DNA of 64,000 nt from Chondrosia reniformis (Eukaryota; Porifera; Demospongiae; Chondrillida; Chondrillidae), in contig OX359191.1 in NCBI GenBank assembly GCA_947172415.1, positions 558,001 through 622,000 on the forward strand. The letters run 5' to 3'. The translations under genes were made by a program, and so were the position numbers. The notes under the pieces are model-generated. The model searched no databases. It had not been told where the DNA came from and was given only the letters and a program-made list of their open reading frames with translations. Below are positions 7,079-63,797 of the stretch, in pieces. Each line of letters opens with the position of its first letter. Position 1 is the stretch's first letter.

Positions 7079-7404
7079 CTACTCTGAGGATCGAGGCTGG
7101 CGGACGAGGAGGTCATAAACCGGGGGGAGGTTGCCTTCATCTCTATTCATTGTGTTCAATTCAGATCGGATGTGCCACGATTCCAGCAGGCATCTCTGGT
7201 GATATTGCTGCTGAACATCCATCACTGTGGCACCCTCCCAGTCAATGTCGTGCGACTCCTGTGCAGCATGCTCTGCCACTGCCGACTGTGCCAGGTGTCC
7301 ACTCACTAGAGCCCGTTTGTGTTCCTTCAGCCGTTGGCCCAGTGTTCTGCCAGTCTGGCCTACATACACTCTGGGGCAACTGTTGCACCTGGACCCCCTT
7401 AACT
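7079..7404 (-). pseudogene. GIY-YIG endonuclease domain, C-terminal remnant of a Penelope-like retroelement
   Basis: The minus-strand frame reads CNSCPRVYVGQTGRTLGQRL followed by KEHKRAL, the typical GIY-YIG nuclease segment at the C-terminus of Penelope-like reverse transcriptases, and ends in TAG at 7079. The rest of the ORF (fingers, palm, thumb) is absent: the frame is cut off upstream where the 105-bp tandem array begins. The Arg and Glu positions after the YVG segment are in place, but a truncated protein would not retrotranspose. In the intact element this domain nicks DNA for target-primed integration. The hammerhead-like motif at 6825-6866 marks the 3' flank of the same element. Confidence 0.75.
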
Positions 7405-8366: not shown

Positions 8367-8824
8367 ACTGTCACCTTTTGCCATTCACCAAGCAAAAGGA
8401 ATAACTAAGGTGTTCTATAATGTATTGTTTTATTACGGCTACTTTAACACAGCTACGTACATATGTGTACGGAGTCTGTAAGCTGGTGCTTATCGATGTA
8501 CCGTTATACTTATAATTATATAAATGTAATATAATTATAATTCTTGATGGTGCCTAACCACTTTTGTATACACTTTAATAGCTCACTTTTTGTGTACCGG
8601 TACCAGCACTTTAACGCAATACGTTCCGTTACCAGTACTGTAATGTTACTCCAGCCACTGTGTAACTTTCACAATTATTCGCATGTAGGGGGTCCTACCC
8701 TGGTCCTGCAAAATGTGTTTATCTGAAATGTGCTAAAATCAGTACCATAATAGTATATCCATTATAAGGTTAAAACCCCAAACACACATGGCAAAAATTA
8801 AAAGCAACTGTTATTCTATTATTA

Positions 8825-43000: not shown

Positions 43001-46000
43001 GACATATGTAGTCTTGATTGCACAATAGTGTCTGGAAGCCAGACTAGGACATGTGTTGGATAATGTTGATTTAGTATTTGTTTTATATTATTCCCATCTC
43101 TATGTTATAGTGTATTCTAATCCAATCACACCTCCTGGTGTTACCACACCAGTCACCCCACAGGTTAGTTACCATGGCAACAAAATATGCACAGGTTCTC
43201 AAAGTTGCTAACACTGTATCCAATGTTTTGACTACTTGTGTGTCAAGTTCAACTGTGCATAAGTGAAGTAGCAATACCATATACCTCCTTACATGAAATG
43301 ATATGGATTGTTTATTGTGACCATAATGACAATCTAAATGAGCTCGAACACTTTAACCTGGTATCATTGCTGAATGATCGTCTGACAGTCATGTGATAAG
43401 TATCTGACAGTCATGTGATAAGTATCTGACAGTCATTTGATAAGTATCTGACAGTCATTTGATAAGTATCTGACAGTCATGTGATAAGTATTTGTTGGGC
43501 ATATGATAAATGTCTGATAATTATGGTATAAGTGTTTTCCATAATGTCAGATCTAACTTTGTACATCTTCCATCTGCACTTACTGAAAGTAGAGACTGTA
43601 AGTTCACTAGCTAGTCAGGCCTTTGTTGATTGTCAAGTTGACCTTTTCTTAATTAAGCATATAGGTACATATGTTGAGGCTGTGTATTGTATTGATGTCA
43701 TCCCATCTCTCTCAATATGGCCTTAAAGGTGATTTCCATATGCAAAGCTACAGAGATAATTGAAATGGCTTCTGGTCATTTCCCATTCTGTCACTTTAAA
43801 GGTTTATCTCATGACTTGTTGGTATCCAGAAAGCTTTCCTTTGACAGATTAATTGAGTAAAGGGGGCTTCCTTAGGTAGTCCCACAGAGAGGTCGGCCTA
43901 TTGATCATGCCTGATCCCTGGAAGTGTAACTGGTTGCTAAGGAAGGTAGTTACAGTATTGGTGGTTACCCTTACTGTAACATATGACATTATGACAATAG
44001 TCTTTTGTACAAGTACAAGTACATCTGTCTGCTTATATACATAGAATGGTCAGACTTGGTGAATAGTTTCCTCTGAAGGAACATGAGGGGGAGGGGTGTG
44101 AGGAGAGGGGGAGGGGTGAGGAGAGGGGGAGGGGTGTGAGGAGAGGGGGAGGGGTGTGAGGAGAGGGGGAGGGGTGAGGAGAGGGGGAGGGGTGTGAGGA
44201 GAGGGGGAGGGGTGTGAGGAGAGGGGGAGGGGTGTGAGGAGAGGGGGAGGGGTGTGAGGAGAGGGGGAGGGGTGTGAGGAGAGGGGGAGGGGTATGAGGA
44301 GAGGGGGAGGGGTGAGGAGAGGGGGAGGGGTGTGAGGAGAGGGGGAGGGGGGAGGGGTGAGGGGGAGGGGTGTGAGGAGAGGGGGAGGGGTGTGAGGAGA
44401 GGGGGAGGGGGGAGGGGTGAGGGGGAGGGGTGTGAGGAGAGGGGGAGAAAGCTCAGTAAATAAAGCTGGGAATAAAAATTGTTTAAGATTGCCATTTTCC
44501 CAATTGCTTTAGCAATAACACTAGCAAATCATACCTTTTTTATAAAATATTTTTTTACTGGTAGGTGTAGCACATATTGACTGTTTCTATGGTAACTTGT
44601 GGCTTTGTAATATTTCATTTTTCCATTGGTTAGTGGGCAGACATACCTCATTATGTAGTGATATCATACCAGTGTGTATATGTATAGGTACTGTATATAT
44701 AATATGAACTATTTAAAATTAATGTATTCATCTCTCCCACTGGGTTTAGAATAACTTTACAGTCACCATCTTTAAAAAATCTTTTATTAATTCCAATTGA
44801 AACCTTAGTCTCTCACCTGCTCCCAGGCAGTATTGTGAAGTGGTTTCTTTCTGTCATTTGTTTTCTTAACCCAAACTACTCCTGTGGTTAAGACTGTATA
44901 TATAATATATTAGCGTCAAACCCTGTCAATCACATGACCAGTGGGTGTACTTGATGTGGCTTCTGACTTGTTTCTTTTCTAAACCCAATTATGTGGCTGG
45001 TAATACCTTCCAACTAGAGGATTGGACCAGTTATGTAGGGAATACATACTTCCCTAATTGTGATACACCCCCTTTGTCCCTTTGAAGAACTACACACTAT
45101 TTGTATTTGGTCATTGAGAAGTGAAACTGTCAATGCAAGAACTTTAATCTCCCCTAAGTAGTAAAGGAATGTATTATAATAACACTCATCTGCATATTGT
45201 CCATGAAATCACTCTGCATAATATAGTTCTGAATCTTTGCAGTCTAAAAGTCAATTATGGTATATAGTTCTGATATACCATAGTAATGATATTCATGAGA
45301 TAAATACTGGGCATATGGTTTATGTCACAATTCCTTCCTATGCACCAGATTCACTTAAACATGAGATCAGTTGATATGGTCTCCATGGAGATCCACTTTC
45401 AGATCTTCCCTCCTTCCTCTGACATAATGTTTAGCTCCCTGTACAAGGGAACAGACATGTGGGAATGTTCTCTTGCTGTATGAAGTAATGTCAGTATGAA
45501 TATTCTAACACACCATTTTTCTGACATGCTACATCTACTTTAGAGTAAAGGCCTACAGGGAACTAAACCTAGTGAGAGTTTGGATAAGGATACAAGAGTC
45601 TCCTTCTTCATCTCTTCTTTACTGGGCCAGACAGCTGTTTCTGGGAATTCCATCCTTTATCAGTGGCCCTGGGAATCTTTGTCTTCTTGATCTTTGTGAG
45701 TAATTGGCTGTGAATTGACTCAGTTTCAAGTCTTCAGTGGAATTTAAGGATGGATTAAGAATCTGTTACAAATGCTGCATCTCCTAACAAAGCCATCAAG
45801 TGTATCCATGTGTATGTAATGTGTTACTGAAAATGTCAGCAAGACTTCATGATATTAGGGAGAGAGAGGAGAGAGAGAGAGAGGAGAGAGAGGAGAGAGA
45901 GGAGAGAGGAGGGAGAGAGGTTGAGAGAGGAGGAGGAGGGAGAGAGAGGAGAGAGATGAGGGAGAGAGGTTGAGAGAGGAGGAGGAGGGAGAGAGAGGAG

Positions 46001-49000
46001 AGAGAGACGAGAGAGAGAGGTTGAGAGAGGAGGAGGAGGGAGAGAGAGGAGAGAGAGAGGTTGAGAGAGGAGGAGGAGGGATAGAGGGGTGTTACCAAAT
46101 CCTGAGGGGTGTTGATGGTATTCATTACATCCTATCATTAATATTAATATTTTCATCAGATGTGTACTTTCATGTGCCATGTATAGCTGTACATTGGAAC
46201 ACAATGAGTCACTATTTACATGTACCTTGCCCTATGTCAGCCTCATGTATATATTCTGAATATTCTAATGTATATGGTACTGACACTTCACCTTAGTACT
46301 GTTCTCTGTATGAGGTTGTATGAATAATCAGAATAGAATATAGAATAATCTATGTGCATTAGCTGATATTTCCCATTAATTGTGAGTCTGGGCAATCTCA
46401 AGCCCAGCACATCCTGTTCCTCAACTGGTGTACACCCCCTTAAATGAAATTATGTTTTCTTTGAAGGATGTAGCAAGTTGTGTGTTTTCAGCTCTTTTGT
46501 GGCTGCCTTAGCCTGAAATAGTAGCAGACTTTAAGATTAAAAGCTGATCTTGAACTCCTGCAGCCTCTCCTCTTCCCTCCCAGGCATCCAACCAGTAGAC
46601 TCTTGTACTCTTCCTTAGGGTGTGTGTTAAGCTATGTGCTTGTAGCAAGCAGTGTTCACTGTTTGACATTCTTGAGTTGTAGTTGATTATCTCAAGTATG
46701 TAGGTCTTCATCAGCAAATATGAAAAATGACAAATGGTTTCATATTTGCTGATGAAGACCTACAGGTTGAAACATTCTGTTACTCAACAGTACCTCTGGA
46801 TTTCGTCATGATTGGAACAAGCAATCCTTATCACTTCATAGTTATTTATGTACTAGAACTTAAATGTGAATATTGTCTTGTTAATATTGTGTTTTACATT
46901 AAAAACAGAACATTTATTATATTTTTACTATTTTACAATTTTTATGTGTATTACACTTTACTGGTTTTCTTAACAAAATCTTCCTCAACATTCATTTCAT
47001 ATAAATATGTTATCTACTGTACCTATCTCTTGGATCATGGTTCATCCTTCGACTTTTTGAGCATCTAGAGATACAGTTTTCTTGTTAAACACTTTAATCA
47101 GATGTTTCGACTCTGGGGTCTTGTTTAGTGACAAAACGTTAAACAATTCGAAAAATGAACCATCCAAAAGATAAGTTAGAAGGAATCCTTATTGTAATGC
47201 TGTACCTATGTACGTATAGTGGCAGCTGATCTGGTCGACCACAAGTTTTCATACCTGATTATTTTGTAATAACCATTGATGTAATAACAGCTGGTTCTTG
47301 GCTAAATAAATTATCTTTAAGCAGTCTGTGGCTTCCATAACACCATTGGTCTATTGTTCAGCTTATCTTCAAAAGTCCAGCTGATTCTTGCATGCTGTTG
47401 TTGATCGTCGCATCTCTTCCCTCCCAGGCTCCTGAACCTCCTGCCCAACCAGTGGAGAAGCCTGCTGTCCCTCAGGAGTATGTGGTGATGCTGCAAGTGT
47501 ATGAAGATTTGCTTGGAAAATCAAAAACTGCTGCAGCTGGGAAGATGGTGAGTGGGTGGGGAGGGCATAGGGGGTGTGTCCACTACAAACGCATATTAAT
47601 ATTTTTAGGACAAATGTTCTAAAATTATAATTTATCTTATAAGTAAGATGTCACTTTGAAATAACCCTAAATAGTTGATTTAAGTAACATACGTACGTAT
47701 TAATTGCATATATCATCAAAGGATGTAATGTACATACGTACTTTCTTGATTTTTATTTTCTTAATGATTAAGGCTACTATTTAGATTGCGCAAGTTTTGG
47801 TATTCTAAGCTACTTATGAATATTAGCATACAAGTGCCTCCAATTCTTCATTTTCAAGTTATTTCTCACATTGTCTAATAAACTTGAGAAGATATAGTGT
47901 TTTTAATTTCCCAGTTTAGTTTCTTTTGTATGACTATTATCAAATAATTTCTCCATATGTAATAATGTATAATGTAATAGGTTTTGCTGTTGAATTTTTA
48001 TGTATTCATACCTTTAAGGGAACAATCTCTAATGGAATTGCCAAATATGCAATAACTTTAAGGGAACAATCTCTAATGGAATTGCCAAATATGTGTACAA
48101 TGACTCATCAAGTTAACTGAACCAGAACTCTACAGTGATCTTTTAAGGATTCCTCACACTTACTACTGAACATATGAATACATTGACCTGGTTATATATA
48201 TATTAAATTTAGTGATTGTGTTATGAGGTTTTCAATTGAATGACTTATCTCTGATGTGACCTCTCTCATATAATAATAAAGCATTTCATGTGATGTGGTA
48301 TGCAAGTGTTCTTCTTTTATTGCATTGCTTGGTTGTCTCTTCTAGGCAATGAAACGGAAAGTGACTGATGTAGACTCTAAAGTGGAAGCTCTAAAAGACC
48401 TTCTCAGAGATAGAAGGTTGTCAGTACCTGTCATTCAATATCTCAACTTTATTGCACAAGGTATTAAATCCATTAAACCATTAAATCAAAGAATTGTGAT
48501 ACCCAATTTAAATTGCACACATTTTAAACCTTACATTTAACACGACTTTAGCAAGGCTTCTGTTTTTATAATAATGTATATACCTACATGTGCTATGTGT
48601 AGAGATGGCACCGGAATCTACTTTTGTTTCTTTTTTAGAAAGGCTGTGTATACTTGTACATATATCAGGTATCTTAGCATTAGCACTTATGAAATCTATG
48701 GCCTATATGGTAAATTTGTTGGTATTGTGCAATTTCAAAATATTATGAATTGAATTCCATTTTAAATTTATTTCCTTTATTTCCTATATATGTACATATA
48801 CTGTACATATACTGCAATTGTTGCAATTGCAAGTGAAACTAGTGCTGTTACTGTTATTGTTGCTGCTTATTAATTGGTTTTTAGTGGCCATGGTGATTGT
48901 TTATATTCCTCTTCAAACTGCAGATATTCAGTCTCGGAATTATCCTGCAGGATTGGAACGTTGCAAGGCAATGGCTGATAGTTGTAATTTTAGTGAAATC

Positions 49001-49488: not shown

Positions 49489-50019
49489 TCAGGTCGGCTT
49501 TTTCTTACTAGTCTCTTCTGTAGACTCACGTAAGCTGTCGCCACTGGTATCGAGTTTTGTCTTACGGTTTGGCGTAGCACGTTCCTTGGACGAATCACAT
49601 ATTTTCTCAGTTGGCCGCTGCTGTGCGGAGGATGGGCGTGTCTCCCTCCGTGGTATTGTAGCGGATCTACCCACCTTCCTTTTTGGAGCTGCAGTTATGT
49701 TAAAACTTGCTGATTTAAATGGAAGAAGTTGGCTCTCTTCTGCAGCTTCGTACGGCTCTCTTTCCACTTTAAGTTCGTTCTCAGTTCCAACTAACGCGAC
49801 GGGTCTCTTCACCGGCAGACCAGTGACGATCGCGTCGTCGCTTTCGCAGACTGGTGAATTAGAATTCGATCGGGATACTATCAACTGTGAAGGGCTGTTT
49901 GGGTTAGTCTCCGGGACTGGTAGATCTGGAGGTAAATCACGCGAAGGAGCGTAGTGGTTGTTGCTACCTTCAGCCACGTTAGCTGGTCTCCGTTCACGAT
50001 TTTCTCTATTATTCTGCAT
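49489..50019 (-). CDS. Disordered Ser/Pro/Arg-rich protein, paralogue 1 (176 aa)
   Basis: Not recognised. A single-exon frame starting MQNNRENRERRPANVAEGSN, rich in Ser, Pro, Asn, Arg and Glu, with no hydrophobic segment and no known domain; likely intrinsically disordered. The two paralogues at 55766-56179 and 61789-62220 share most of the sequence. Differences between copies include several gaps that are all multiples of three bases, which points to a coding history. Only this copy has the C-terminal part after RRETRPSS (about 45 residues, basic). A TATA box lies about 75 bases upstream and a poly(A) signal downstream, so the transcription unit looks complete. It is convergent with SEC31. 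SATIPRRE-like basic Ser sites could be kinase targets; this is speculation. Confidence 0.65.
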   Translation of the reverse strand: MQNNRENRERRPANVAEGSNNHYAPSRDLPPDLPVPETNPNSPSQLIVSRSNSNSPVCESDDAIVTGLPVKRPVALVGTENELKVEREPYEAAEESQLLPFKSASFNITAAPKRKVGRSATIPRRETRPSSAQQRPTEKICDSSKERATPNRKTKLDTSGDSLRESTEETSKKKPT

Positions 50020-50090
50020 TCTGTCGCATAAATGTAGACAATATTACAACTCCTAGCCACTCTGTAAACTGAGCATGCTGTTGTACCCTT

Positions 50091-50163: not shown

Positions 50164-50333
50164 ATAATTCCATCCCATTTGGTCATGGGCGTTCCTGGTG
50201 GTTTTATGATGGAATTATATTGTGAATCGACACGTGACTGATAAATGGCTTCCACCGGAGCGCCGTAAGTACTTTTAAAGTAGTCTCGCGTAACCCAGAT
50301 ACCGCTATAATAATAATTGCTACGCGAGACTAC
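50164..50333. repeat. Two nested inverted repeats present only in unit 1
   Basis: An 11-bp pair (50164-50174 with 50208-50218, ATAATTCCATC) and a 13-bp pair (50280-50292 with 50321-50333, GTAGTCTCGCGTA), both perfect. Units 2 and 3 lack the segment, so it may be a small MITE insertion upstream of paralogue 1. Confidence 0.6.
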
Positions 50334-50339
50334 GACCAC

Positions 50340-51059
50340 TCAGTACTTCAATGGATTTATTCCACGAGTGCTCTTTTGCAAGTAGGGCGTTTCCAAAAAT
50401 TGAATATATATATTATATTAATATTATTTAACTGACCTAGACCTGTATTTTGTAAGACATTTAATTATATTTGTAGCTATATTGTTAATTGTATTGTTAT
50501 CCTGATTTGTGACATAACTTCGTTATCAATTGTCCATCTTATATCCCCACCAAAAGAAGCTTGGTAGAACCTGTTTACTTAAATTAAAGCCGAATTAAAT
50601 CAATTTCCAGTCGACGGTTGTAAAGCCACAAATTGATTGGAGCATGTTCTAGAGGGGGAATACCCTGATAACACTCAAACTGAAAGTCATGCACAATGTC
50701 TGTGGACATCCTATGAACTTCCAAAGATATAAATTGCACATTTAAGATACCAGTTGACTAATAGATTAATATGCATAATGAATGGATGTATTCTTCATAT
50801 TAGATTCATGTAAATGGTGTATGCTAAACAAATGTACATATATAAATTGTATTGTATAAATTATGGAGGTTCCATAGTATTGTGTTATATATATATATAT
50901 GTATTCTTCAAGCTACACCTGCCTACAGAAAAACAAACATGATACATGTATATGATAATATTAATTAATCTACACTTCATCTACCATAAAGACTAGTTTT
51001 TAAACACCAAAGTGTTGTGCTATATAATGCACATAAATAACTTAACTTTAATAAAGTTC
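50340..51059. other. AT-rich spacer between paralogue 1 and the GC-rich block
   Basis: No gene seen. Similar to the corresponding spacers in units 2 and 3 but with many indels, so it is under little constraint. A plus-strand AATAAA lies at about 51048, just before the block. Confidence 0.6.
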
Positions 51060-51730
51060 TTGACACTGCAGGTCATGTACTTCTCTCAGCACAACTCAAG
51101 TAGAGTTGCCCCAGGGCACACCACGAGGAGGTGAAAGTACATCGTGCCCCACCCCACAGCGTTGACACTAACTATTGTGTAACAGAAGCTGTAACTGCGC
51201 AGTAATCTGCACTCATGGAGTTACTAGCCATGACATAGGAATCGATCAGCGTTAGCCTCACTTTCAGCCTATGCCAAGTCCGACCCTCCCGAACCGCAAA
51301 CTGCCCCGATGAGAATCAGTGTGTTGCCACACCTTTAACTCCTCAGGATCGGATGACGTCTTTGAAGTGGGGACTGGCGAAACAACTGCCCAAATCAGGT
51401 GTCGACAACCGACTTCAACTTACATAGTTACGTGATCACCTCAATCTCCGTGCCATCAGACCCCAGCCGAAGCCAGAGCTAGTGAGGACCAATCCCAAGC
51501 ACCAACCCTCCCACTGAGTTCCTCATCAGATTGCATATCCAACGTGACACCAGGCCGCATTCTCAGCTCGCTGGCGGAGCCGAGGGGAATCCTGGGTCTA
51601 CTTGTCTAGCGCTCCGAACAGGACTACTCGGGATAAGGAAAGACCACCGTCAGGCACAGAAACTTTAGCAATCTCACGCGTCAAGTAAGCCACTGGGGGT
51701 AAAATGAGAAAAGTTCACACCTCGCGCCTT
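51060..51730. other. GC-rich conserved block, unit 1; candidate structured non-coding RNA or regulatory block
   Basis: About 670 bp, clearly richer in GC and CpG than anything around it. It differs from the copies at 56921 and 63041 by only a handful of bases, while the sequence to its left has diverged with many gaps. No frame above about 35 codons on either strand. Hairpins are visible, for example CAACTC/GAGTTG with a 5-nt loop at 51092-51108 and GGGCAC/GTGCCC at 51114-51149. It does not match tRNA, 5S, U1-U6, SRP or RNase P RNA patterns I know. Read on the minus strand it would start about 25-40 bases after a TTAAAAGG element and a CCAAT/CRE/E-box cluster. Confidence 0.6.
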
Positions 51731-51817
51731 TTAATGCGTGAACATTCCAATCCGCCCCGCATATGCCCATAAAAGGAATTGTGACGTCAGTCGGCACGTG
51801 ACTGTAAAATGGCTTCC
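51731..51817. promoter_or_regulatory. Promoter-like cluster beside the GC-rich block, unit 1
   Basis: Plus strand: CCAAT in ATTCCAATCC near 51747, CATAAAAGG near 51769, CRE TGACGTCA at 51782-51789, E-box CACGTG in GGCACGTGAC, and AAAATGGCTTCC (YY1/TISU-like) at 51806-51817. The minus strand offers TTAAAAGG about 25 bases from the block. The cluster is kept in all three units. Direction is not certain; it could be bidirectional. Confidence 0.55.
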
Positions 51818-54800
51818 ATTGTGTAGTTGTCAAGTTCTTTCGAGTACAATTTTAACGAGTTGTATGATGTTACTGCGTTGAACACTTAACATTTCAAGCA
51901 ATAGCGTCAGTTATGAATTACCTAATGTAAGTTTTCACGTTGTACATTTGGTTAGAATATTTCTGTCTCTACTGACCGCTGACAATATTCGCATGGAACT
52001 TTCTTTCTCTTTTTTGACCCTTTTCTTCTTTTTAATCGAAGGTTTGTTGACTTGACTTTCCAGTATAAAGTATAAAATGGATGAAACTAGATTTCAATTC
52101 TGTAAAGTGATTCTTATTGGCAGATACTGATTTATGGCTCTCAGTCATTCAAGAAAAGTATGCTCCTACTAGTGGACACTTTTGAAATCCTTAGTTGTCA
52201 CCTAGCAACCACATTATAACATGTGTTAACATTTGCTCTGACTCTTAAAGTCTTGTCAAAGTTGTATTGAATAGTGTTCTTTGTTATACCTATTGTATTC
52301 TCGGCAGTGGATGTATATTGAAATGTATTAAGTGAACTAATAATGATTTATATTTAAAATGATACTTTTCCCTAAATACTCTTACAACTCACTTAGCAAG
52401 CTCCTATACCATGCGTACACTTAGAATATGGAATGTGCCACCCATTGTATGTGCCAGTAAAGTGTTTATGAGTCCTTGTGTAGATAGACCTGCATCACTT
52501 TGTGTATTACTACTCTTAGAGTGTTGGCATGGTCAATAGACAAACGGAAGCTATACTCTCCAAATTCCTAAATACATTCTTTAGTATATCATCGTTAAAA
52601 CTCTGGATATTAAAGTTCCCTATTTTTCCATCTCATTTGTAGTCACCTAGAAACCAAAATCTGCCATGTTTACCTGCTCTATCTATTTTTAAGATTGTAG
52701 ATTTATGTTGAGATACTCTTACAATTCACTGATTGATGAAATGATACTTAGTAGTTGTTGCATAATTATTTAATGATTGTTGAACTACAGCAACAGTAAT
52801 ATTCTTTAGAACTGAACGTTTCAACCCTAAGGACTTCATCAGCAATTTACTGAAGACCTATTACTGTTGCTGCAGGTTTAATAATCATCAACTAATTGTT
52901 TTTATTTAAGTTAGTGCTCTGCCTCACTAGTTCACTAAATTTGGTGGTACCTCTAGATTTGTTTCATAAAACTTTCACGTGTTTGCCTTCTAGACGCGTA
53001 CAGAATTGTGCTTTTTGAATTTTCACCAGATATATCTACAGTTGAGTAGATATATCTACATGTATATAAATTTGTTGCCATGACTACAATAAATGTAAAT
53101 TGATAAAAGGTGTTTTAGCTATGAGATAGGAAGTAGGTACAAGAAGTATTATTTATAGTACTATAGAAGTAGTATAAAGTCATTCCCTGTCCCTTCCTTT
53201 GTGGCTTCCTCTGTCTGACCACATTTTATGGACTGTGTTATATGTTTGTTTTGTTTATGTTGTTTTCATCCGAAACTGATGTATTTAGAGGTGTTTGTGG
53301 ATAATGCAAAATTTTGATCATTTCATTACGCAAAAAGCAAACTTATTAATGATATATGTTTTAATACTCTTTATCTGAAGAAATTCATTAGTTTCACTTT
53401 TAGGAATGTTTCACTGTTTAAGCTGTTTAGTTAATGGCAGTTTTTACTCTCTAAAGATTAAGCTGTTGTTACCATGGTTACTGCTTACATACTTTTGGTG
53501 GATAAATTATTAGAGAACAACTTCAAAGCTGCTCAGTAATCAGAAATGAGTTCACAGACTTAAGTGGATGTAATCATTGAGCATAAACACGATTGGTTAC
53601 TAACAAATCATTCTTAGATAAGCTAGTTAATTTCTTTAGTGAACACTGCTATAGAGTGGCCCTCAGTATACAAGATTAGATAAGAGATTATATATTGTGT
53701 ACTTAACTAAGCTGACCAATATATAGTGTATGGAATGGAAGGCCTCAAAACATGTGCTCTGACCACATGTTTTTATATTTTACTTATGTGTAATAACCAC
53801 TGATGTAAATAAATAATCTTTAAACTACCTGTAGCTTCCATAACATGATTGGTTTATGGTTCAGTTTCTTCTCAAAGGCTAGCTGATTCTTGTCAGTGTG
53901 TTTACTGTAATGTCACTCTAGTGGCTCTAATATTAGTTAGTTTGGCCTTCATATTGTATGTGTGTGAGGACATGTTTATGTACTATTTGAGTTTCATTGT
54001 CCCTTATGTCATTTTAAAACTGTATATTTCATTTCCAACACCATAGTGTGAAATGGTAGGACTTACCACTGCCTATCAGCTAGGTATGTACTAATTGAGT
54101 TTCATTGAAGTTATTGCATCATAAGCTCTTTCCATGGCAACTTAAACTCTTTTGTTACTCTTCCATTCCTTAGTTATAGAAGTATGACAAAGCCTTTCCA
54201 AAATATTTAATTGAATGTTCTGCATGAGGAATATGTTACCCAAGTAGTTACAAATATCCTTCCTTCAGACAGGTATATTTTTGTCTTTTAATATCTCAGC
54301 CAATCTGTGATCTCAGCCAATCTGTGATCTCAGCCAAGCACTCTGTAATAGGTTGTTAGAGTGGATATTATTTGTGGCATTTTTTCCACTCAGTTTTGTA
54401 TTGTGTCCCAGATGTGGTTTGTTATGCTAGCAAAACCTGTTGACATAACATTGATATATCTTCCTGTGTGATATCATACTATATGTCACAATTATATGTC
54501 ACATTTAGGATGTGTAGCAGACTATATCCTTTCCTCTGGCCACTGTCCCCAAATATCTAAGGTTCAGACTTCACAACTCAAAAGGACATATGCCAAAAAT
54601 ATTAACATATGCAAATGCCATTCATTTTTCTCAATGTTTTGTTATTATTTAGTCCGTAATGTCATAATGTGCTTGGCTTCTGTGGTTATTGAAATACACT
54701 AGAGAGGACTGACTCTAATAGGAAAGCTCTTGACCAGGGTAGTCTTTTCCTATAATTGCGTATATAATTACTTATATTGTTATAAGGATTCCTTATATCA

Positions 54801-55285
54801 TTATATATTTATAGGGATAAGTTACAGGAATTTTAGATTTGATGCCATAAACCAAGGATAAAGTGTAATTTTTATGTGATTGGTACTTCCATTAAATCAT
54901 CATAGAAATCAGATGTATGTAATTGTATGATTAAAAATTTTAAATTTATTAGGAAAATTCTTAAATCATAGTCAATATATACTAGAGATAGTCTTATTTG
55001 TACATATAGAGAATTTGTATAGAGACAGTGTAATACATACATAGATTTAGACATAGCCAGTAGTGGTATGCAATACACAATTTATATGACAGTTCTTATG
55101 TAAATAATTGTCTGTATACATTTAATATGATGTAATAGCACAAATATTGGAACTTACATTATCATGTGTTAATTCACATGTGTGGTGGTTACAATGAAAC
55201 CAATCAAATTTTAGATATGTATTTAATTATTAGAATGAACTGTAACAATACTTAATTATTTGGTTTGAATGTACAAACAGTATTT
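51818..55285. other. AT-rich remainder of unit 1
   Basis: Nearly identical to about 57681-61262, with scattered indels, especially over the last kilobase. Contains a hammerhead-like motif at 52810 and the SEC31-intron-like segment near 53795. Small frames at 53849-54046 and 54496-54702 are shared with unit 2 but have no other support. Confidence 0.6.
52810..52847 (-). ncRNA. Hammerhead-like motif with intact core, unit 1
   Basis: Minus strand: AATTG, CTGATGA, stem II AGTCC/GGGTT (with wobbles) around TTA, GAAACGTT, CAGTT. Stem I forms five pairs with one G/T wobble. The extra A seen in other copies pairs here as the first pair of stem II, so the conserved core is complete. Stem III is the minimal ACGT. 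Confidence 0.55.
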
Positions 55286-55322
55286 GCCGTAGTGATTGTT
55301 TATATTCCTCTTCAAACTGTAG

Positions 55323-55459
55323 ATATTTAATCTCGAAATTATCCTGCAGGATTGGAATGTTGCAAGGCAATGGCTGATAGTTGTAATTTTAGTGAAATCT
55401 CCCCCTTCATGCCGGGCATCAAGCTCCTCCTCTAACTGGGGGTTCAGTTGGACCTCTAA
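55323..55459 (+). pseudogene. Dead copy of the SEC31 last exon, unit 2
   Basis: Same 137-base length as the genuine exon 26 and clear identity, with the AG acceptor kept. Two Gln codons have become TAA (third codon, and within KLLL*LGV), so it cannot encode the SEC31 C-terminus. No exons 24-25 lie upstream. Confidence 0.9.
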
Positions 55460-55765
55460 CTCACTACTAACCTCTTAGGTTAGAGATAAAGGAATATTAT
55501 TCATCTCAGCACTCTAATATTTATTAACTTCAAATGAATAAGTCAAATTTATTTATATGATTAACTTTAGAAGATTATTCTATTTTTTGAATTTACTGTT
55601 GAATATTCAGTATAAATATGTTACACAAAACATATAAATTTAATAAAGCATAATATTTACCAGGTGTAGTGGGGTGAATGGTGAATGTATGACATTTCTA
55701 CAACTGTGTAAAATGTTTTAACTGTCTTGTGCGCACAATCCAAATTTGCATTTTCTCATCCGCTG

Positions 55766-56179
55766 CTAGGATAGGTTTGTCTCTCTCCGCGGTATTGTAG
55801 CGGATCTACCCACCTTCAGATTGGCTGGTTCCATCTTTTTTGAAACTGCAGTTATGGTAAAACTTGCTGATTTAAATGGAAGAAGTTGGCTCTCTTCTGC
55901 AGCTTCAACTTTAAGTTCGTTCTCGGTTCCAAATAACGCGACGGGTCTCTTGACCGGCAGACCAGTGACGATCGCGTCGTCGCTTTCGCAGCCTGGTGAA
56001 TTAGAATTCGATCGGGATAGTATCAACTGTGAAGGGCTGTTTGGGTTAGTCTCCGGGACTGGTAGATCTGGAGGTAAATCACGCGAAGGAGCGTAGTGGT
56101 TGTTGCTACCTTCAGCCACGTTAGCTGGTCTCCGTTCATTGTCAGTTTCCTGTGAAAGCGTTATCCTGTTATTTTGCAT
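55766..56179 (-). CDS. Disordered protein, paralogue 2 (137 aa)
   Basis: Starts MQNNRITLSQETDNERRPAN. Compared with paralogue 1 it has an in-frame insertion after MQNNR, lacks four residues (REPY region) and has an in-frame MEPANL insertion before KVGRSATIPRRE. It ends at a TAG that replaces the start of the C-terminal region of paralogue 1; the same stop is present in paralogue 3. A TATAAATA-like box lies about 70 bases upstream. Function unknown. Confidence 0.55.
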   Translation of the reverse strand: MQNNRITLSQETDNERRPANVAEGSNNHYAPSRDLPPDLPVPETNPNSPSQLILSRSNSNSPGCESDDAIVTGLPVKRPVALFGTENELKVEAAEESQLLPFKSASFTITAVSKKMEPANLKVGRSATIPRRETNLS

Positions 56180-56920
56180 ACTGTTACAAAATTAGAAAGT
56201 TCTACTGACTGCCTTCGGATGACACAATCAGCTCGATAGTACTACCCTTATTTATAATCGAATAGATTTCCGGTCGGCTGCCACAAATTCCAAATTTGTA
56301 GAGGGGGAATACCCTGATAAAACCCGGAAACTAAAAGCCATAAAACCGCAGTTAACTATATACGAGTTTTGATAATGTCTGTTAATGGAATCCCTATTTA
56401 TACCAAAGAAAAACTTCCATTGCACAGTTAGATACCAGAGTTTCATATAAATTTAGTTTTAATGAACAAATGATATTCTAAAATAGTTTTAAAATTGTTA
56501 CCTATGGAGGTCCCATGCATGAACACAGTGTTCTTTAAGCTACACCTTCCTATAGAGAAGTTAACTAATGATGTTGACATGTTTCTGGACACGTGCACCT
56601 TATGAACTTTCAAAAATATATAAATGAACGCAGTCAGGATTCCATTTGACTAATAAAGGTTCATGTAAATGGTGCATGCTGAACAAATGATATTGAATGT
56701 CAAAGTTGTTAAATAAGCATGGAGGTCCCATGCATAAACCAAGGGTGTATTCTTCAAGCTACACCTACCTACAGAAAACATGATATATGATAATATTAAT
56801 TAATCTACACTTCATCTACAATAAAGATTAGTTTTAAAACACCAAAGCTTTGTTATATAATGCACAATGTCATAAATTACTTAACTTATGCACATAAGTA
56901 ACTTAACTCGAATAAAATTC

Positions 56921-57593
56921 TTGACACTGCAGGTCATGTACTTCTCTCAGCACAACTCAAGTAGAGTTGCCCCAGGGCACACCACGAGGAGGTGAAAGTA
57001 CATCGTGCCCCACCCCACAGCGTTGACACTAACTATTGTGTAACAGAAGCTGTAACTGCGCAGTAATCTGCACTCATGGAGTTACTAGCCATGACATAGG
57101 AATCGATCGGCGTTAGCCTCACTTTCAGCCTATGCCAAGTCCGACCCTCCCGAACCGCAAACTGCCCCGATGAGAATCAGTGTGTTGCCACACCTTTAAC
57201 TCCTCAGGATCGGATGACGTCTTTGAAGTGGGGACTGGCGAAACAACTGCCCAAATCAGGTGTCGACAACCGACTTCAACTTACATAGTTACGTGATCAC
57301 CTCAATCTCCGTGCCGTCAGACCCCAGCCGAAGCCAGAGCTAGTGAGGACCAATCCCAAGCACCAACCCTCCCACTGAGTTCCTCATCAGATTGCATATC
57401 CAACGTGACACCAGGCCGCATTCTCAGCTCGCTGGCGGAGCCGAGGGGAATCCTGGGTCTACTTGTCTAGCGCTCCGAACAGGACTACTCGGGATAAGGA
57501 AAGACCACCGTCAGGCACAGAAACTTTAGCAATCTCACGCGTCAAGTAAGCCACTGGGGGTAAAATGAGAAAAGTTCACACCTCGCGCCTTTT
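56921..57593. other. GC-rich conserved block, unit 2
   Basis: Differs from the unit 1 block at a few positions by eye (for example GATCGGCG for GATCAGCG and GCCGTCAG for GCCATCAG). No long frame. Confidence 0.6.
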
Positions 57594-57680
57594 TAAGCGT
57601 GAACATTCCAATCCGCCCCCCAAAGATGCCCATAAAAGGAATTGTGACGTCATTTGGCACGTGACTGTAAAATGGCTTCC
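57594..57680. promoter_or_regulatory. Promoter-like cluster, unit 2
   Basis: CCAAT, TATA-like, CRE at 57645-57652, CACGTG and AAAATGGCTTCC at 57669-57680, with the same spacing as unit 1; minus strand TTAAAAAGG beside the block. Confidence 0.5.
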
Positions 57681-58711
57681 ATTGTGTAGTTGTCAAGTTC
57701 TTTCGAGTACAATTTTAACGAGTTGTATGATGTTACTGCGTTGAACACTTAACATTTCAAGCAATAGCGTCAGTTATGAATTACCTAATGTAAGTTTTCA
57801 CGTTGTACATTTGGTTAGAATATTTCGGTCTCTACTGACCGCTGACAATATTCGCATGGAACTTTCTTTCTCTTTTTTGACCCTTTTCTTCTTTTTAATC
57901 GAAGGTTTGTTGACTGGACGTTCCAGTATAAAGTATAAAATGGATGAAAGTAGATATTTCAATTCTGTAAAGTGATTCTTATTGGCAGATATGATCGCAG
58001 CTACTGATTTATGGCTGTCAGTCAGTCTTCAGTCTTTCAAGAAAGGTAAGAAAAGTATGCTTCTACTAGTGGACACTTTTGAAATCCCTTTTTCAGTTGT
58101 CACCTAGCAACCACATTATAACATGTGTTAACATTTGCTCTGACTCTTAAAGTCTTGTCAAAGTTGTATTGAATAGTGTTCTTTGTTATACCTATTGTAT
58201 TCTCGGCAGTGGATGTATATTGAAATGTGTTTAGTGAACTAATGATGATTTATATTTAAGATGATACTTTTCCCTAAATACTCTTACAACTCACTTAGCA
58301 AGCTCTTATACCATGCGTACACTTAGAATATGGAATGTGCTACCCATTGTATGTGCCAGTAAAGTGTTTATGAGTCCTTGTGTAGATAGACCTGTATCAC
58401 TTTGTGTATTACTACTCTTAGAGTGTTGGCATGGTCAATAGACAAACGGAAGATATGCTCTCCAAATTCCTAAATACATTCTTTAGTATATCATCGTTAA
58501 AACTCTGGATATTAAAGTTCCCTATTTTTCCATCTCATTTGTAGTCACCTAGAAACCAAAATCTGCCATGTTTACCTGCTCTATCTATTTTTAAGATTGT
58601 AGATTTATGTTGAGATACTCTTACAATTCACTGATTGATGAAATGATACTTAGTAGTTGTTGCATAATTATTTAATGATTGTTGAACTACAGCAACAGTA
58701 ATATTCTTTAG

Positions 58712-58749
58712 AACTGAACGTTTCAACCCTAAGGACTTCATCAGCAATT
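58712..58749 (-). ncRNA. Hammerhead-like motif with intact core, unit 2
   Basis: Identical to the motif at 52810-52847, as part of the duplicated unit. Confidence 0.55.
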
Positions 58750-61300
58750 TACTGAAGACCTATTACTGTTGCTGCAAGTTTAATAATCATCAACTAATTG
58801 TTTATATTTATGTTAGTGCTCTGCTTCACTAGTTCACTAAATTTGGTGGTACCTTTAGATTTGTTTCATAAAACTTTTACGTGTTTGCCTTCTAGACGCG
58901 TACAGAATTGTGCTTTTTGAATTTTCACCAGATATATCTACAGTTGAGTAGATATATCTACATGTATATAAATTTGTTGCCATGACTACAATAAATGTAA
59001 ATTGATAAAAGGTGTTTTAGCTATGAGATAGGAAGTAGGTACAAGAAGTATTATTTATAGTGCTATAGAAGTAGTATAAGTCATTCCCTGTCCCTTCCTT
59101 TGTGGCTTCCTCTGTCTGACCACATTGTATGGACTGTGTTTATATGTTTGTTTTGTTTGTTGTTTTCATCCAAAACTGATGTATTTAGAGGTCTTTGTGG
59201 ATAATGCTAATATTTTGATCATTTCATACATTACAGAAAAAGAAACTTATTATGATATATGTTTTAATACTCTTTATATGAAGAAATTCATTAGTTTCAC
59301 TTTTAGGAATGTTTCACTGTTTAAGCTGTTTAGTTAGTGGCTATCAGTTTTTACTCTCTAAAGATGAAGCTGTTGTTACCATGGTTACTGCTTACATACT
59401 TTTGGTGGATAAATTAACAGAGAACAACTTCAAAGCTGCTCAGTAATCAGAAATGAGTTCACAGACTTAAGTGGATGTAATCATTGAGCATAAACACGAT
59501 TGGTAACTAACAAATCATTCTTAGATAAGCTAGTTTAATTTCTTTAGTGAACACAGCTATAGAGTGGCCATCAGTATACAAGATTAGATAAGAGATTATA
59601 TATTGTGTACTTAACTAAGCTGACCAATATATAGTGTATGGAATGGAATAGCCTCAAAACATGTGCACTGACCACACGTTTTTATATATTACTTGTGTGT
59701 AATAACCACTGATGTAATACAGCTGATTCCTAAGTAGATAAATAATCTTTAAACTATCTGTAGCTTCCATAACACGATTGGTCTATGGTTCAGTTTCTTC
59801 TCATAAGGCTAGCTGATTCTTGTCAGTGTGTTCACTGTAATGTCACTCTAATGGCTCTAATGTTAGTTAGTTTGGCCTTCATATTGTATGTGTGTGAGGA
59901 CATGTTTATGTACTATTTGAGTTTCATTGTCCCTTATGTCATTTTAAAACTGTATATTTCATTTCCAACACCATAGTGTGAAATGGTAGGACTTACCACT
60001 GCCTATCAGCTAGGTATGTACTAATTGAGTTTCATTGAAGTTATTGCATCATAAGCTCTTTTCATGGCAACTTAAACTCTTTTGTTACTCTTCCATTCCT
60101 TAGTTATAGAAGTATGACAAAGCCTTTCCAAAATATTTAATTGAATGTTCTGCATGAGGAATATGTTACCCAAGTAGTTACAAATATCCTTCCTTCAGAC
60201 AGGATTGGTATATTTTTGTCTTTTAATATCTCAGCCAATCTGTGATCTCAGCCAAGCACTCTGTAATAGGTTGTTAGAGTGGATATTATTTGTGGCATTT
60301 TTTCCACTCAGTTTTGTATTGTGTCCCAGATGTGGTTTGTTATGCTAGCAAAACCTGTTGACATAACATTGATATATCTTCCTGTGTGATATCATACTAT
60401 ATGTCACAATTATATGTCACATTTAGGATGTGTAGCAGACTATATCCTTTCCTCTGGCCACTGTCCCCAAATATCTAAGGTTCAGACTTCACAACTCAAA
60501 AGGACATATGCCAAAAATATTAACATATGCAAATGCCATTCATTTTTCTCAATGTTTTGTTATTATTTAGTCCGTAATGTCATAATGTGCTTGGCTTCTG
60601 TGGTTATTGAAATACACTAGAGAGGACTGACTCTAATAGGAAAGCTCTTGACCAGGGTAGTCTTTTCCTATAATTGCGTATATAATTACTTATATTGTTA
60701 TAAGGATTCCTTATATCATTATATATTTATAGGGATAAGTTACAGGAATTTTAGATTTGATGCCATAAACCAAGGATAAAGTGTAATTTTTATGTGATTG
60801 GTACTTCCATTAAATCATCATAGAAATCAGATGTATGTAATTGTATGATTAAAAATTTTAAATTTACTAGGAAAATTCTTAAATCATAGTCAATATATAC
60901 TAGAGATAGTCTTATTTGTACATATAGAGAATTTGTATAGAGACAGTGTAATACATACATAGATTTAGACATAGCCAGTAGTGGTATACAATACACAATT
61001 TATATGACAGTTCTTATGTAAATAATTGTCTGTATACATTTAATATGATGTAATAGTGCAAATATTGGAACTGACATTATCATGTGTTAATTCACATGTG
61101 TGGTGGTTACAATGAAACCAATCAAATTTTAGATATGTACTTAATTATTAGAATGAACTGTAACAATACTTAATTATTTGGTTTGAACCAAATTTGGTTT
61201 GAAAATATTAGAATGAACTGTAACAATACTTAATTATTTGGTTTGAATCTACACACAGTATTTGCCGTAGTGATTGTTTATATTCCTCTTCAAACTGTAG

Positions 61301-61436
61301 ATATTTAATCTCAGAATTATCCTGCAGGATTGGAACGTTGCAAGGCAATGGCTGATAGTTGTAATTTTGTGAAATCTCCCCCTTCATGCCGGGCATCAAG
61401 CTCCTCCTCCAACTGGGGGTTCAGCTGGACCTCTAA
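61301..61436 (+). pseudogene. Dead copy of the SEC31 last exon, unit 3
   Basis: Shares the early TAA of the unit 2 copy and has a one-base deletion in AATTTTGTG (AATTTTAGTG in the genuine exon), which shifts the frame. The second TAA of unit 2 is absent (Gln kept). Confidence 0.9.
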
Positions 61437-61788
61437 CTCACTACTACCCTCTTAGGTTAGATTGTCTTTAGATGAAGGAATATTATTATTCATCTCATCA
61501 CTCTAATATTTATTAACTTCCCAGAAATAGGTCAATTTTTTTAATATGATTATAATTTTATTTATATGATCAACTTTAGAAAATTATTCTATTTTTATAA
61601 ATTTACTGTTAAATATTCAGTATAAATATATGTTACAAATCTACATAAAATATGTAAATTTAATAAAGCATGATATTTAACAGGTATAGTGGATGAATGG
61701 TAAATGTATGACATTTCTACTACTGTGTATAATGTGTCTAAAACTGTCATATGCACACAATCCAATCCATTTTCTCAGTTAGCCGCTG

Positions 61789-62220
61789 CTAGGATAGGCG
61801 TGTCTCCCTCCGTGGTATTGTAGCGGATCTACCCATGGCCACCTCCTTAAGATTGGCAGCTGGTTCCATCTTTTTTGAAGCTGCAGTTATATTAAAACTT
61901 GCTGATTTAAATGGAAGAAGTGGGCTCTCTTCTGCAGCTCCGTACGGCTCTCTTTCAACTTTAAGTTCGTTCTCAGTTCCAAATAACGCGACGGGTCTCA
62001 GACCAGTGACGATCGCATCGTCGCTTTCGCAGACTGGTGAATTAGAATTCAAACGGGATACTATCAACTGTGAAGAGCTGTTTGGGTTAGTCTCCGGGAC
62101 TGGTAGATCTAGAGGTAAATCACGCGAAGGAGCATAGTGGTTGTTGCTACCTGCAGCCACGTTAGCTGGCCTCCGTTCATGGTCATTTTCCTGTGAAAGC
62201 GGTATCCTGTTATTTTGCAT
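61789..62220 (-). CDS. Disordered protein, paralogue 3 (143 aa)
   Basis: Starts MQNNRIPLSQENDHERRPAN. Lacks three residues (PVK) that paralogues 1 and 2 have, and carries the longer MEPAANLKEVAMGRSAT form before the shared TIPRRET end and stop. Every gap is a whole number of codons. A TATAAAAA box is at 62353-62360 on the minus strand. The upstream region differs from the other copies, so its control may have changed. Confidence 0.55.
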   Translation of the reverse strand: MQNNRIPLSQENDHERRPANVAAGSNNHYAPSRDLPLDLPVPETNPNSSSQLIVSRLNSNSPVCESDDAIVTGLRPVALFGTENELKVEREPYGAAEESPLLPFKSASFNITAASKKMEPAANLKEVAMGRSATIPRRETRLS

Positions 62221-62352
62221 ACTAATACTATTACAAAAGTTCTACTGACTGCTTTTCAGCCTCGTTGTCAAGGTTGCAAAAAGATTTGTCTTGGACAACG
62301 CAATCAGCTCGATAGAGCACCAAACTTGTTCATTCACAGCCTCGAGTGAGCC

Positions 62353-62360
62353 TTTTTATA
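62353..62360 (-). promoter_or_regulatory. TATA box of paralogue 3
   Basis: TATAAAAA on the minus strand, about 130 bases upstream of the ATG at 62220. Confidence 0.45.
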
Positions 62361-63040
62361 GTGCGACGATATTTGGTAGGATACGATTGAACCATATAAC
62401 GGAAATGATGGCGAGTCATTGGTCAATTGAAAGGTCAAGTATAATCGATTTCCGGTCAGAAAAAGTCACAATGTCCAAATTTTAAAGGGGGAATACCCTG
62501 ATTAAACCCGGATAAAGCCATAAAACCGCAGTTTTGATATTGTCAATTAGTGGAATCCCTAATATACCAAAGATAAACTTCCATTGCACAGTTAGATTGA
62601 CTAATAGTTTCATATAAATTTAGTTTTAATGAACAAAATGATATTATTAGTATTCTAAAATATGAATTCGAAGTCAAAATTGTTACATATAGATACACCT
62701 TCCTACAGAGTCGTTAACTAATAATTTTGAAGTGCTTCTGGAGTCCTTATGAACTTTCACAAATATATAAATGAACGCAGTCAGGATTTCATTTGACTAA
62801 TAAAGGTTCATGTAATGCAGCATTCTAAACAAATGTCAAAATTCTTATATAAACATGGAGGTCCCATGCATAAACCAAGGGTTATTATGTATTCTTCATG
62901 CTACACCTACCTACAGAAAACATGATATATGATAATATTAATTAATCTACACTTCATCTACCATAAAGATTAGTTTTAAAACACCAAAGCTTTGTTATAT
63001 AATGCACAATGTCATAAGTAACTTAACTTGAATAAAGTTC

Positions 63041-63711
63041 TTGACACTGCAGGTCATGTACTTCTCTCAGCACAACTCAAGTAGAGTTGCCCCAGGGCAC
63101 ACCACGAGGAGGTGAAAGTACATCGTGCCCCACCCCACAGCGTTGACACTAACTATTGTGTAACAGAAGCTGTAACTGCGCAGTAATCTGCACTCATGGA
63201 GTTACTAGCCATGACATAGGAATCGATCGGCGTTAGCCTCACTTTAGCCTATGCCAAGTCCGACCCTCCCGAACCGCAAACTGCCCCGATGAGAATCAGT
63301 GTGTTGCCACACCTTTAACTCCTCAGGATCGGATGACGTCCTTGAAGTGGGGACTGGCGAAACAACTGCCCAAATCAGGTGTCGACAACCGACTTCAACT
63401 TACATAGTTACGTGATCACCTCAATCTCCGTGCCGTCAGACCCCAGCCGAAGCCAGAGCTAGTGAGGACCAATCCCAAGCACCAACCCTCCCACTGAGTT
63501 CCTCATCAGATTGCATATCCAACGTGACACCAGGCCGCATTCTCAGCTCGCTGACGGAGCCGAGGGGAATCCTGGGTCTACTTGTCTAGCGCTCCGAACA
63601 GGACTACTCGGGATAAGGAAAGACCACCGTCAGGCACAGAAACTTTAGCAATCTCACGCGTCAAGTAAGCCACTGGGGGTAAAGTGAGAAAAGTTCACAC
63701 CTCGCGCCTTT
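63041..63711. other. GC-rich conserved block, unit 3
   Basis: Matches unit 2 except for a few substitutions and one single-base deletion (CACTTTAGCC). No long frame. Confidence 0.6.
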
Positions 63712-63797
63712 TTAAGCGTGACATTCCAATCCGCCCCCGCAGATGCCCATAAAAGGAATTGTGACGTCATTCGGCACGTGACTGTAAAATGGCTTCC
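63712..63797. promoter_or_regulatory. Promoter-like cluster, unit 3
   Basis: CCAAT, TATA-like, CRE at 63762-63769, CACGTG and AAAATGGCTTCC at 63786-63797. Confidence 0.5.

Follow-up and report, generated by a model that had tools for sequence, protein, structure and literature searches.

Self-cleaving ribozymes of the hepatitis delta virus (HDV)-like type fold as a nested double pseudoknot of the elements P1 (7 bp), P2, P3, P1.1 and P4, with the catalytic cytosine lying in J4/2, within the motif C-N-R-A. To our knowledge, the HDV-like ribozymes found in eukaryotic genomes belong mainly to retrotransposons or are rare single examples. Theta ribozymes are HDV-like ribozymes located 3' of phage tRNAs and proposed to make the 3' end of the RNA (PMC10879173), and the ribozymes of R2 and L1Tc/ingi are reported to free the mobile element from a co-transcript, the R2 ribozyme lying at the 5' end (PMC3774820, PMC4035085). 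Retrozymes are described as carrying hammerhead ribozymes, with circular RNA intermediates and seemingly no promoters of their own (PMC7761336), and the CPEB3 ribozyme as an HDV-like ribozyme in the intron of one protein gene (PMC10919898). The present analysis concerns a 64,000-nt stretch of the genome of the sponge Chondrosia reniformis (assembly GCA_947172415.1, contig OX359191.1, positions 558,001 to 622,000 of the forward strand; hereafter the window, C3:558001-622000), which contains three GC-rich blocks in tandem. Judging from their sequence anatomy, these blocks are probably, and in our view with good confidence, copies of multi-copy structured RNA genes of the RNA polymerase II (Pol II) type, whose product would have its 3' end cut by its own HDV-like ribozyme.

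The blocks start at window positions 51060, 56921 and 63041 and are as alike as a preliminary description of the same DNA had stated, with pairwise identities of 99.70% (1 vs 2), 99.11% (1 vs 3) and 99.40% (2 vs 3) over ~671 nt. Their high GC content and the lack of a long reading frame, remarked upon in the same description, are equally apparent, since 500-nt bins lying largely inside a block have a GC content of 0.46-0.54 against 0.29-0.36 in the bins next outside (the exceptions being two outer bins that overlap a block end, with 0.39 and 0.44), and no stop-to-stop frame of at least 80 aa overlaps any block. The observed/expected CpG ratio is 0.67-0.74 in six copies of the gene family that is named A below. 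The TATA-like TTAAAA(A)GG formerly noticed on the minus strand is indeed present at three sites (51727-51734, 57588-57596 and 63707-63715), 22-30 nt before an initiator-like TCA. Each block thus shows the same plan on the minus strand, with a TATA-like box, an initiator-like site, a body of 554-555 nt and a predicted HDV-like ribozyme, the last being a specific structure at the end of the conserved unit that the preliminary description had left unnamed. This gene is referred to below as family A. The conserved unit is slightly shorter than the block (about 51070-51725 in block 1), and a further, fourth A copy is found just beyond the window (C3:629,696). The features of the three copies are the following.

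51151..51705, minus strand: predicted 555-nt RNA body of gene A copy 1; +1 (A of the initiator-like TCA) at 51705, predicted cleavage site between 51151 and 51150
51075..51150, minus strand: HDV-like ribozyme of copy 1 (predicted), 76 nt; 26.6 bits with Rfam HDV-F-prausnitzii (cut-off 44) and 96.1 bits with model R1, the latter high by construction because R1 was built from A copies
51727..51734, minus strand: TATA-like box TTAAAAGG of copy 1, which is TATAAAAG in many other A copies
51782..51800, minus strand: upstream motifs of copy 1, TGACGTCA at 51782-51789 and CACGTG at 51795-51800; the consensus of 20 aligned A copies contains both
57012..57566, minus strand: predicted 555-nt RNA body of gene A copy 2, which agrees with copy 1 at 553/555 positions
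56936..57011, minus strand: HDV-like ribozyme of copy 2 (predicted), 76/76 identical to copy 1; R1 match at 56938-57011
57588..57596, minus strand: TATA-like box TTAAAAAGG of copy 2, from sequence and alignment
63132..63685, minus strand: predicted 554-nt RNA body of gene A copy 3, which agrees with copy 2 at 551/555 positions
63056..63131, minus strand: HDV-like ribozyme of copy 3 (predicted), 76/76 identical to copies 1 and 2; R1 match at 63058-63131
63707..63715, minus strand: TATA-like box TTAAAAAGG of copy 3, from sequence and alignment

When the three copy pairs are properly aligned, 553/555, 551/555 and 549/555 positions are identical in the predicted transcribed part, and the 76-nt 3' part is identical at 76/76 in every pair. 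The flanks are far less alike, agreeing in 149/226, 174/222 and 156/211 columns over the 200 nt past the 3' part and in 242/252, 232/261 and 222/261 columns over the 250 nt on the promoter side, so that a divergence equal to that of the flanks, which the preliminary description had named as telling against its reading, is not observed.

With regard to the 3' part, no Rfam match is found in the window at the gathering score. A permissive scan of 50800-52100 (E<=5) gave HDV-type matches on the minus strand at 51152-51075, the best with 26.6 bits against the cut-off of 44. Base by base, the 3' end of A reads as a complete predicted HDV-like fold, in which P1 is GGGGCAC/GUGCCCU (7 bp, with a G1.U pair at the cleavage site), P2 is AUGUACUUU/GAAGUACAU (9 bp), P3 is ACC/GGU (3 bp, closed by UCCUCGU), P1.1 is GG, P4 is CAACUC/GAGUUG and J4/2 carries GCUGA. 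A 37-base pattern of the 5' part of this ribozyme occurs at 311 places genome-wide with up to 3 mismatches (159+152); its reversed control occurs at 0 places, as do the reversed controls of the other core, body and exon patterns.

The genome searches covered the Chondrosia reniformis assembly of 117,379,552 bases in 15 contigs; the assembly odChoReni1 of this sponge is reported as 117.37 Mb, with chromosomes of 10.41, 10.29, 9.42 Mb and so on (PMC12181767). A pattern of 31 bases of the A body (up to 3 mismatches) is found at 84 places on all 14 chromosomes, with 0 places for its reversed control, so that the unit, for which a search for further copies had been proposed from the start, is not confined to the tandem array. 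A whole-genome DNA search scored 40 of 435 candidates, 98-100% identical, most of them over ~655 nt. The ribozyme, with at most one mismatch, accompanies 80 of the 84 bodies at the correct distance and on the correct strand, and all 20 loci chosen by body similarity (the best 20 of the 40 scored) carry it; these body-based tests are less biased than copies found through the ribozyme pattern. Counting two further families, B and C, there are ~475 pattern places, among which 43 distinct A, 23-24 B and 10 C copies were read; the family sizes come from short patterns in which up to 2-3 mismatches were allowed, and hence leave out diverged copies but include decayed ones.

The anatomy of gene A, which can be observed directly in the copies, is largely constant in length, the distance from start to cleavage site being exactly 555 nt in 34 of 38 anchored copies (5 of the 43 distinct copies, which lack the 5' anchor, were dropped). 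On the sense strand, the flanks of 20 copies present a TATA-like box and an initiator-like TCA(G), to which the consensus adds TGACGTCA and CACGTG upstream, although both are absent from some copies. In the first 20 anchored copies, mean pairwise identity upstream of the start rises from 26.9% (-450..-200) to 42.8% (-200..-40) and 72.7% (-40..0), reaches 98.7% in the body and 99.0% in the ribozyme (last 76 nt), and then falls at the 3' edge of the ribozyme to 61.4% over the next 50 nt and 26.8% beyond.

Family B came to light among 20 additional places with weaker matches to the ribozyme, 18 of which proved to hold a different gene with a plan like that of A, comprising a TATA-like box, an initiator-like site, a GC-rich body and a ribozyme. 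Its sequence resembles that of A in two parts only, the ribozyme, with 90.6% identity over 53 nt, and a module of 45 nt, with 82% identity (E 1e-7). Read by eye, this module folds alike in both families as a helix around a UUAAA or CUAAA internal loop facing GAUU. Between its conserved stretches, B has an AT-rich, divergent predicted intron of 73-118 nt with the form TCAG/GTTRGTT ... TTCTTTT(n)YAG/TTC (slashes at the exon borders). Both intron marks are present in 18 of 19 5'-anchored copies, the second being missing from locus L067 (5 of the 24 distinct copies, lacking the anchor, were dropped). As the marks were sought via GT and AG patterns, the GT-AG form is given, and it is the contrast between exons and intron that is independent, with identities among the 18 copies of 91.6% and 92.2% in the exons and 58.7% in the intron. 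The TATA-initiator spacing was read by eye in all three families; A and C show no intron.

This contrast bears on the earlier suggestion that the blocks are kept alike by selection or gene conversion. Selection on a mature RNA seems to explain the likeness better and gene conversion less well, because the B intron diverges while both exons stay at ~92%; taken together, the conservation contrasts in A and B point to selection on the putative mature RNA. As for the number of B genes, the exon-2 pattern occurs at 311 places (159+152) and, since an independent exon-1 pattern agrees with this total (316 places, 161+155), the count stands at about 311-316. Among the matches listed, 86 of 93 exact exon-2 places pair with an exact exon-1 place, 93 being used because the last seven listed exon-2 places lie beyond the end of the listed exon-1 matches. 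None of these 86 pairs shows the spacing of 260-266 nt expected of an intronless copy, the smallest spacings being 288 and 315 nt. B genes are dense on the chromosome arms of C1 and C2 and, among the matches listed, there are none in a broad middle stretch, as in the gap at 2.87-5.83 Mb of chromosome 1; such gaps may mark centromeric or low-recombination regions.

Family C was reached through the Rfam model RF02682 (HDV-F-prausnitzii), which placed 59 of 61 scored places (of 4126 candidates in the genome) above the gathering score and gave no match in 14 control genomes. The first five places fetched hold a third gene, ~290 nt long, which has TATAAATAG, the initiator-like sequence TTCAGG and, at its 3' end, a ribozyme, and 59 of the 61 scored places adjoin a C body on the same strand. 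A pattern of this body occurs at 80 places genome-wide. In locus L073 the C ribozyme matches the whole RF02682 model with 47 bits against the cut-off of 44, and its helices differ from those of A (P1 GUCGAGC/GCUCGAC, P4 CAGCAG/CUGCUG, with GCUAA). At E below 0.02, a 15-nt P3/L3 core is all that C has in common with A and B. This core has 191 occurrences in the genome, and no further families were found among the 100 listed, of which 89 were placed by eye and 11 fetched, all being A, B or C.

The hundreds of dispersed copies with near-identical bodies could also be those of a non-autonomous mobile element (retrozyme-like, R2-like or similar to a short interspersed nuclear element) that uses an HDV-like ribozyme, their near-identity reflecting recent spread. 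This would agree with the literature, in which eukaryotic HDV-like ribozymes are best known from retrotransposons and R2 is reported from animals, with Porifera among the terms (PMC13188248). It would also agree with the concentration of copies towards chromosome ends, as 74 of 84 A copies (41.4 expected if uniform) and 60 of 80 C copies (39.2 expected) lie within 2 Mb of an end, with 0 and 5, respectively, in the central third; two of the chromosome lengths used in this comparison were taken from a rounded published table. Nevertheless, the promoter motifs are common to the copies, yet diverged, and lie upstream of the start; since they are outside the transcript, a copied RNA would lose them. 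The B intron is kept in every pair considered above, and homology between the flanks of A copies has no single sharp edge, fading at differing points for differing pairs. Outside the tandem array, 1.5-kb A flanks share little with the window apart from short repeats. The ribozyme, moreover, sits at the 3' end of the conserved unit, and ARAGORN detects no tRNA-like part, either 5' of the cleavage site in the 7 loci scanned or anywhere in the window, a result on which a tRNA-derived repeat was also rejected. A mobile element therefore appears rather unlikely.

The reading of the blocks as RNA genes with a 3'-terminal ribozyme is further supported by the fold itself. Families A, B and C show the tested defining fold features of HDV-like ribozymes, as predicted from sequence, A and B being below the Rfam cut-off. 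In a scripted check, the elements of the double pseudoknot are present in A and B and the fold is complete in all but one of the distinct copies of each family (42 of 43 in A, 22 of 23 in B), a check that is biased in that most copies were originally found by the ribozyme pattern. J4/2 reads GCTGA in all distinct A rows except one (ACTGA) and GCGAA, GCAAA or GCTAA in B. The script considered only 2 of 10 C ribozymes complete, having chosen wrong P2 partners; by eye, 9 of the 10 have AGTCAC/GTGACT as P2 and GCTAA in J4/2, and the remaining one, L076, is truncated.

The ribozyme helices covary within B and between families, according to the aligned sequences. Among 19 distinct A and B ribozymes, 97.3% of the cells are paired and 18 cells show double changes, values that 0 of 500 shuffles reach, and slid controls of the alignment are 34-54% paired. 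P1 is invariant in this set, but it reads GGGACAC/GUGUCCU in L083 and L084, two copies of family B, and C has the P1 given above, so that P1 pairs 2-6 each swap one standard pair for another across A, B and C. Comparing C with the others presupposes that both ribozymes can be aligned by their common fold; among the rows compared, one from B and one from C are misplaced by one or two bases, and several are decayed copies.

The bodies of A and B also appear to be structured. The A body (copy L004) has a predicted folding energy of -216.7 kcal/mol, with a z-score of -3.55 in the sense orientation against 0.06 for the complement (60 dinucleotide shuffles), and spliced B (L054) has -3.95, with -1.82 for its complement. 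As to the hairpins formerly seen in the blocks, the fold of the minus strand beats those of 20 dinucleotide shuffles (z -3.59) and that of the plus strand does not (z -0.22). An alignment of 18 spliced B sequences folds with -180.5 kcal/mol, compared with -124.8 +/- 5.8 for 20 column shuffles; 99.6% of its pair cells are kept (0 of 500 shuffles), and it has 6 double-change pairs, a number that 5 of 500 shuffles reach, and 12 double-change cells, which none reaches.

The preliminary description had offered two readings of the blocks, a structured non-coding RNA gene or a regulatory block. The former is favoured on account of the TATA-like box and initiator-like site, the sense-only folding excess, the conservation from start to ribozyme and the complete predicted 3' ribozyme, and the latter is not needed. 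A DNA element of regulatory or structural function, kept alike by gene conversion and with an incidental ribozyme-like fold, would account for three near-identical tandem copies with a promoter adjoining each of them, and for the distribution towards chromosome ends; however, sequence changes preserve the ribozyme helices, the folding excess of A is strand-specific, the B exons are conserved around a diverging intron and the same plan recurs in three families, all of which makes such an element highly improbable.

The two ends of the predicted A and B RNAs are expected to pair, in A through ACCCC close to the start and GGGGU at the terminus, and in B through CAACUCUG and CAGAGUUG. Together with the high self-pairing, the non-coding nature and a small self-cleaving ribozyme, this would suit an RNA released as a circle or replicating in a viroid-like manner, with the genomic copies as its DNA form. 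Such an origin seems very unlikely nonetheless, since Rfam sees just one ribozyme per copy, with no second one on either strand of 50800-52100 (E<=5) or in L073, L054 and L004 (E<=1), and the genes have a TATA-initiator start and, in B, an intron.

Other candidates were rejected. A known RNA family was discarded because Rfam 15 gives only HDV-type matches in the regions just named, at the same thresholds. A coding gene was discarded because the blocks contain no frame of at least 80 aa and because sense ATG frames do not exceed 78 aa, the longest being 34 aa in A, 78 aa in B and 66 aa in C (first six copies each). As to a microbial or viral origin, the exact core patterns are absent from viral contigs and genome contigs, which is weak evidence, as it covers exact matches only.

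Several observations weigh against RNA genes ending in their own ribozyme. Four of the 84 A bodies have no ribozyme within one mismatch, and one of 81 ribozymes (at most one mismatch) has no A body pattern. Decayed copies exist, with a truncated ribozyme in L076, changed P1 and P1.1 in L078, and deletions in L079 and L067; listed among them is L062, which has a ribozyme but no A body. C variants include an A.C at P1 pair 1 (L074) and GA at P1.1 (L082). The A and B ribozymes score 26.6 and 27.6 bits with RF02682, under its cut-off of 44, and two other Rfam models, RF00094 and RF01787, have no genome match over the cut-off and give weak matches in 2 and 7 of 14 control genomes as well. Two of the five covariation measures do not go beyond shuffles, namely the 5 pairs with a double change (reached by 34 of 500) and the 9 further pair types (reached by 487 of 500); all double changes of the A and B set sit in P4, where pair 47-65 is unpaired in 8 of 15 cells. 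Lastly, C (L072) has no structure excess (z -0.06), and antisense stop-to-stop frames reach 125 aa in its first six copies.

In L062 (C3:8242705-8246041), the A-type ribozyme lies with its 3' flank at 1273-1337 on the minus strand, with no A body upstream, and this locus is possibly a recombinant or a relic.

The known systems resemble the sponge genes in part. By its placement, the predicted ribozyme would work like the theta ribozymes, as both have an HDV-like fold and would cleave where a non-coding RNA has its 3' end. Theta ribozymes, however, belong to phage tRNAs and not to a nuclear gene family of an animal; ARAGORN finds no tRNA in the 7 loci or the window, and the sponge genes would encode large RNAs, with TATA promoters and an intron in one family. 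R2 and L1Tc/ingi similarly have an HDV-like fold in a multi-copy sequence, but in the sponge it is the part preceding the predicted cut that is conserved, with the ribozyme as its last portion, and no conserved element follows downstream, where A identity falls as given above. Retrozymes are likewise reported as non-coding dispersed repeats of animals or plants with a small self-cleaving ribozyme (PMC7229834, PMC4918200); the sponge genes differ in their one HDV-like ribozyme, their own promoter and the intron of B, and no hammerhead, the ribozyme that retrozymes carry in LTRs or tandem repeats, is matched by Rfam in the window at the gathering score, or by the permissive scan of 50800-52100 (E<=5), which gave only the HDV type. 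CPEB3 is another HDV-like ribozyme in an animal gene, but it is intronic and belongs to a single gene, unlike the 3'-terminal ribozyme of many non-coding genes proposed here. Finally, the C ribozyme matches the whole model RF02682, which is named for a bacterium and under whose cut-off A and B remain.

From this anatomy we infer transcription, the involvement of Pol II, cleavage and a role in an RNA-protein particle. Pol II would start at the TATA-initiator promoter on the minus strand and, in A, produce a GC-rich, highly structured RNA of ~555 nt; in B the intron would be removed to give a mature RNA of ~570 nt, and the C RNA would have ~290 nt. Once emerged, the last 76 nt would fold as an HDV-like ribozyme and cut just upstream of themselves, leaving an A RNA that ends in ...GUGGGGU with a 2',3'-cyclic phosphate and no poly(A), and whose ends would pair in a closing helix (ACCCC with GGGGU). 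The conservation of the mature RNA, its strand-specific structure and the copy number suggest an abundant RNA that acts in trans; that it serves as the scaffold of an RNA-protein particle is a proposal for which we see roughly equal chances either way.

HDV-like ribozymes appear here as a regular 3'-end device of hundreds of non-coding RNA loci of host type. In a wider reading, on which our judgement is evenly divided, an animal lineage would possess a new abundant class of structured RNAs (~475 pattern loci in three families) in which a built-in HDV-like ribozyme replaces the poly(A), Integrator or histone machinery, A and B being distant members of one RNA lineage with a common core domain and C an independent recruit of the 3'-end device. 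If this is true, HDV-like ribozymes would have a natural role in an animal, capped and even spliced RNAs could obtain their 3' ends by an alternative route, and an early-branching animal phylum would contribute new structured RNAs of large size. The literature covered, outside which most subscription papers lie, yielded no description of non-coding RNA gene families with a 3'-terminal HDV-like ribozyme in sponges or other animals.

Some minor features of the window may also be mentioned. Each 6-kb unit of the tandem array contains a related open reading frame (ORF) on the minus strand, downstream of the RNA gene, at 49489-50043 (184 aa), 55766-56191 (141 aa) and 61789-62241 (150 aa), with lengths counted stop to stop; these ORFs have no Pfam match at E 0.1. 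A near-identical 24-nt string is present at 50231-50254 (CACGTGACTGATAAATGGCTTCCA) and 51795-51818 (CACGTGACTGTAAAATGGCTTCCA), the latter upstream of the A gene and the former ~1.6 kb from it, next to the neighbouring ORF, which gives the impression of an element common to two promoters. A tandem array of ~9 copies of a 105-bp unit occupies 7386-8373, and the same unit was seen by eye, inverted, upstream of the C gene in L071. There are also long simple repeats with a strand asymmetry (CTCTCCCC, TCCCC, GAGGGG..., GA) at 20461-20783, 35472-35917, 44085-44447 and 45860-46086, the first three of which show an extreme GC skew.

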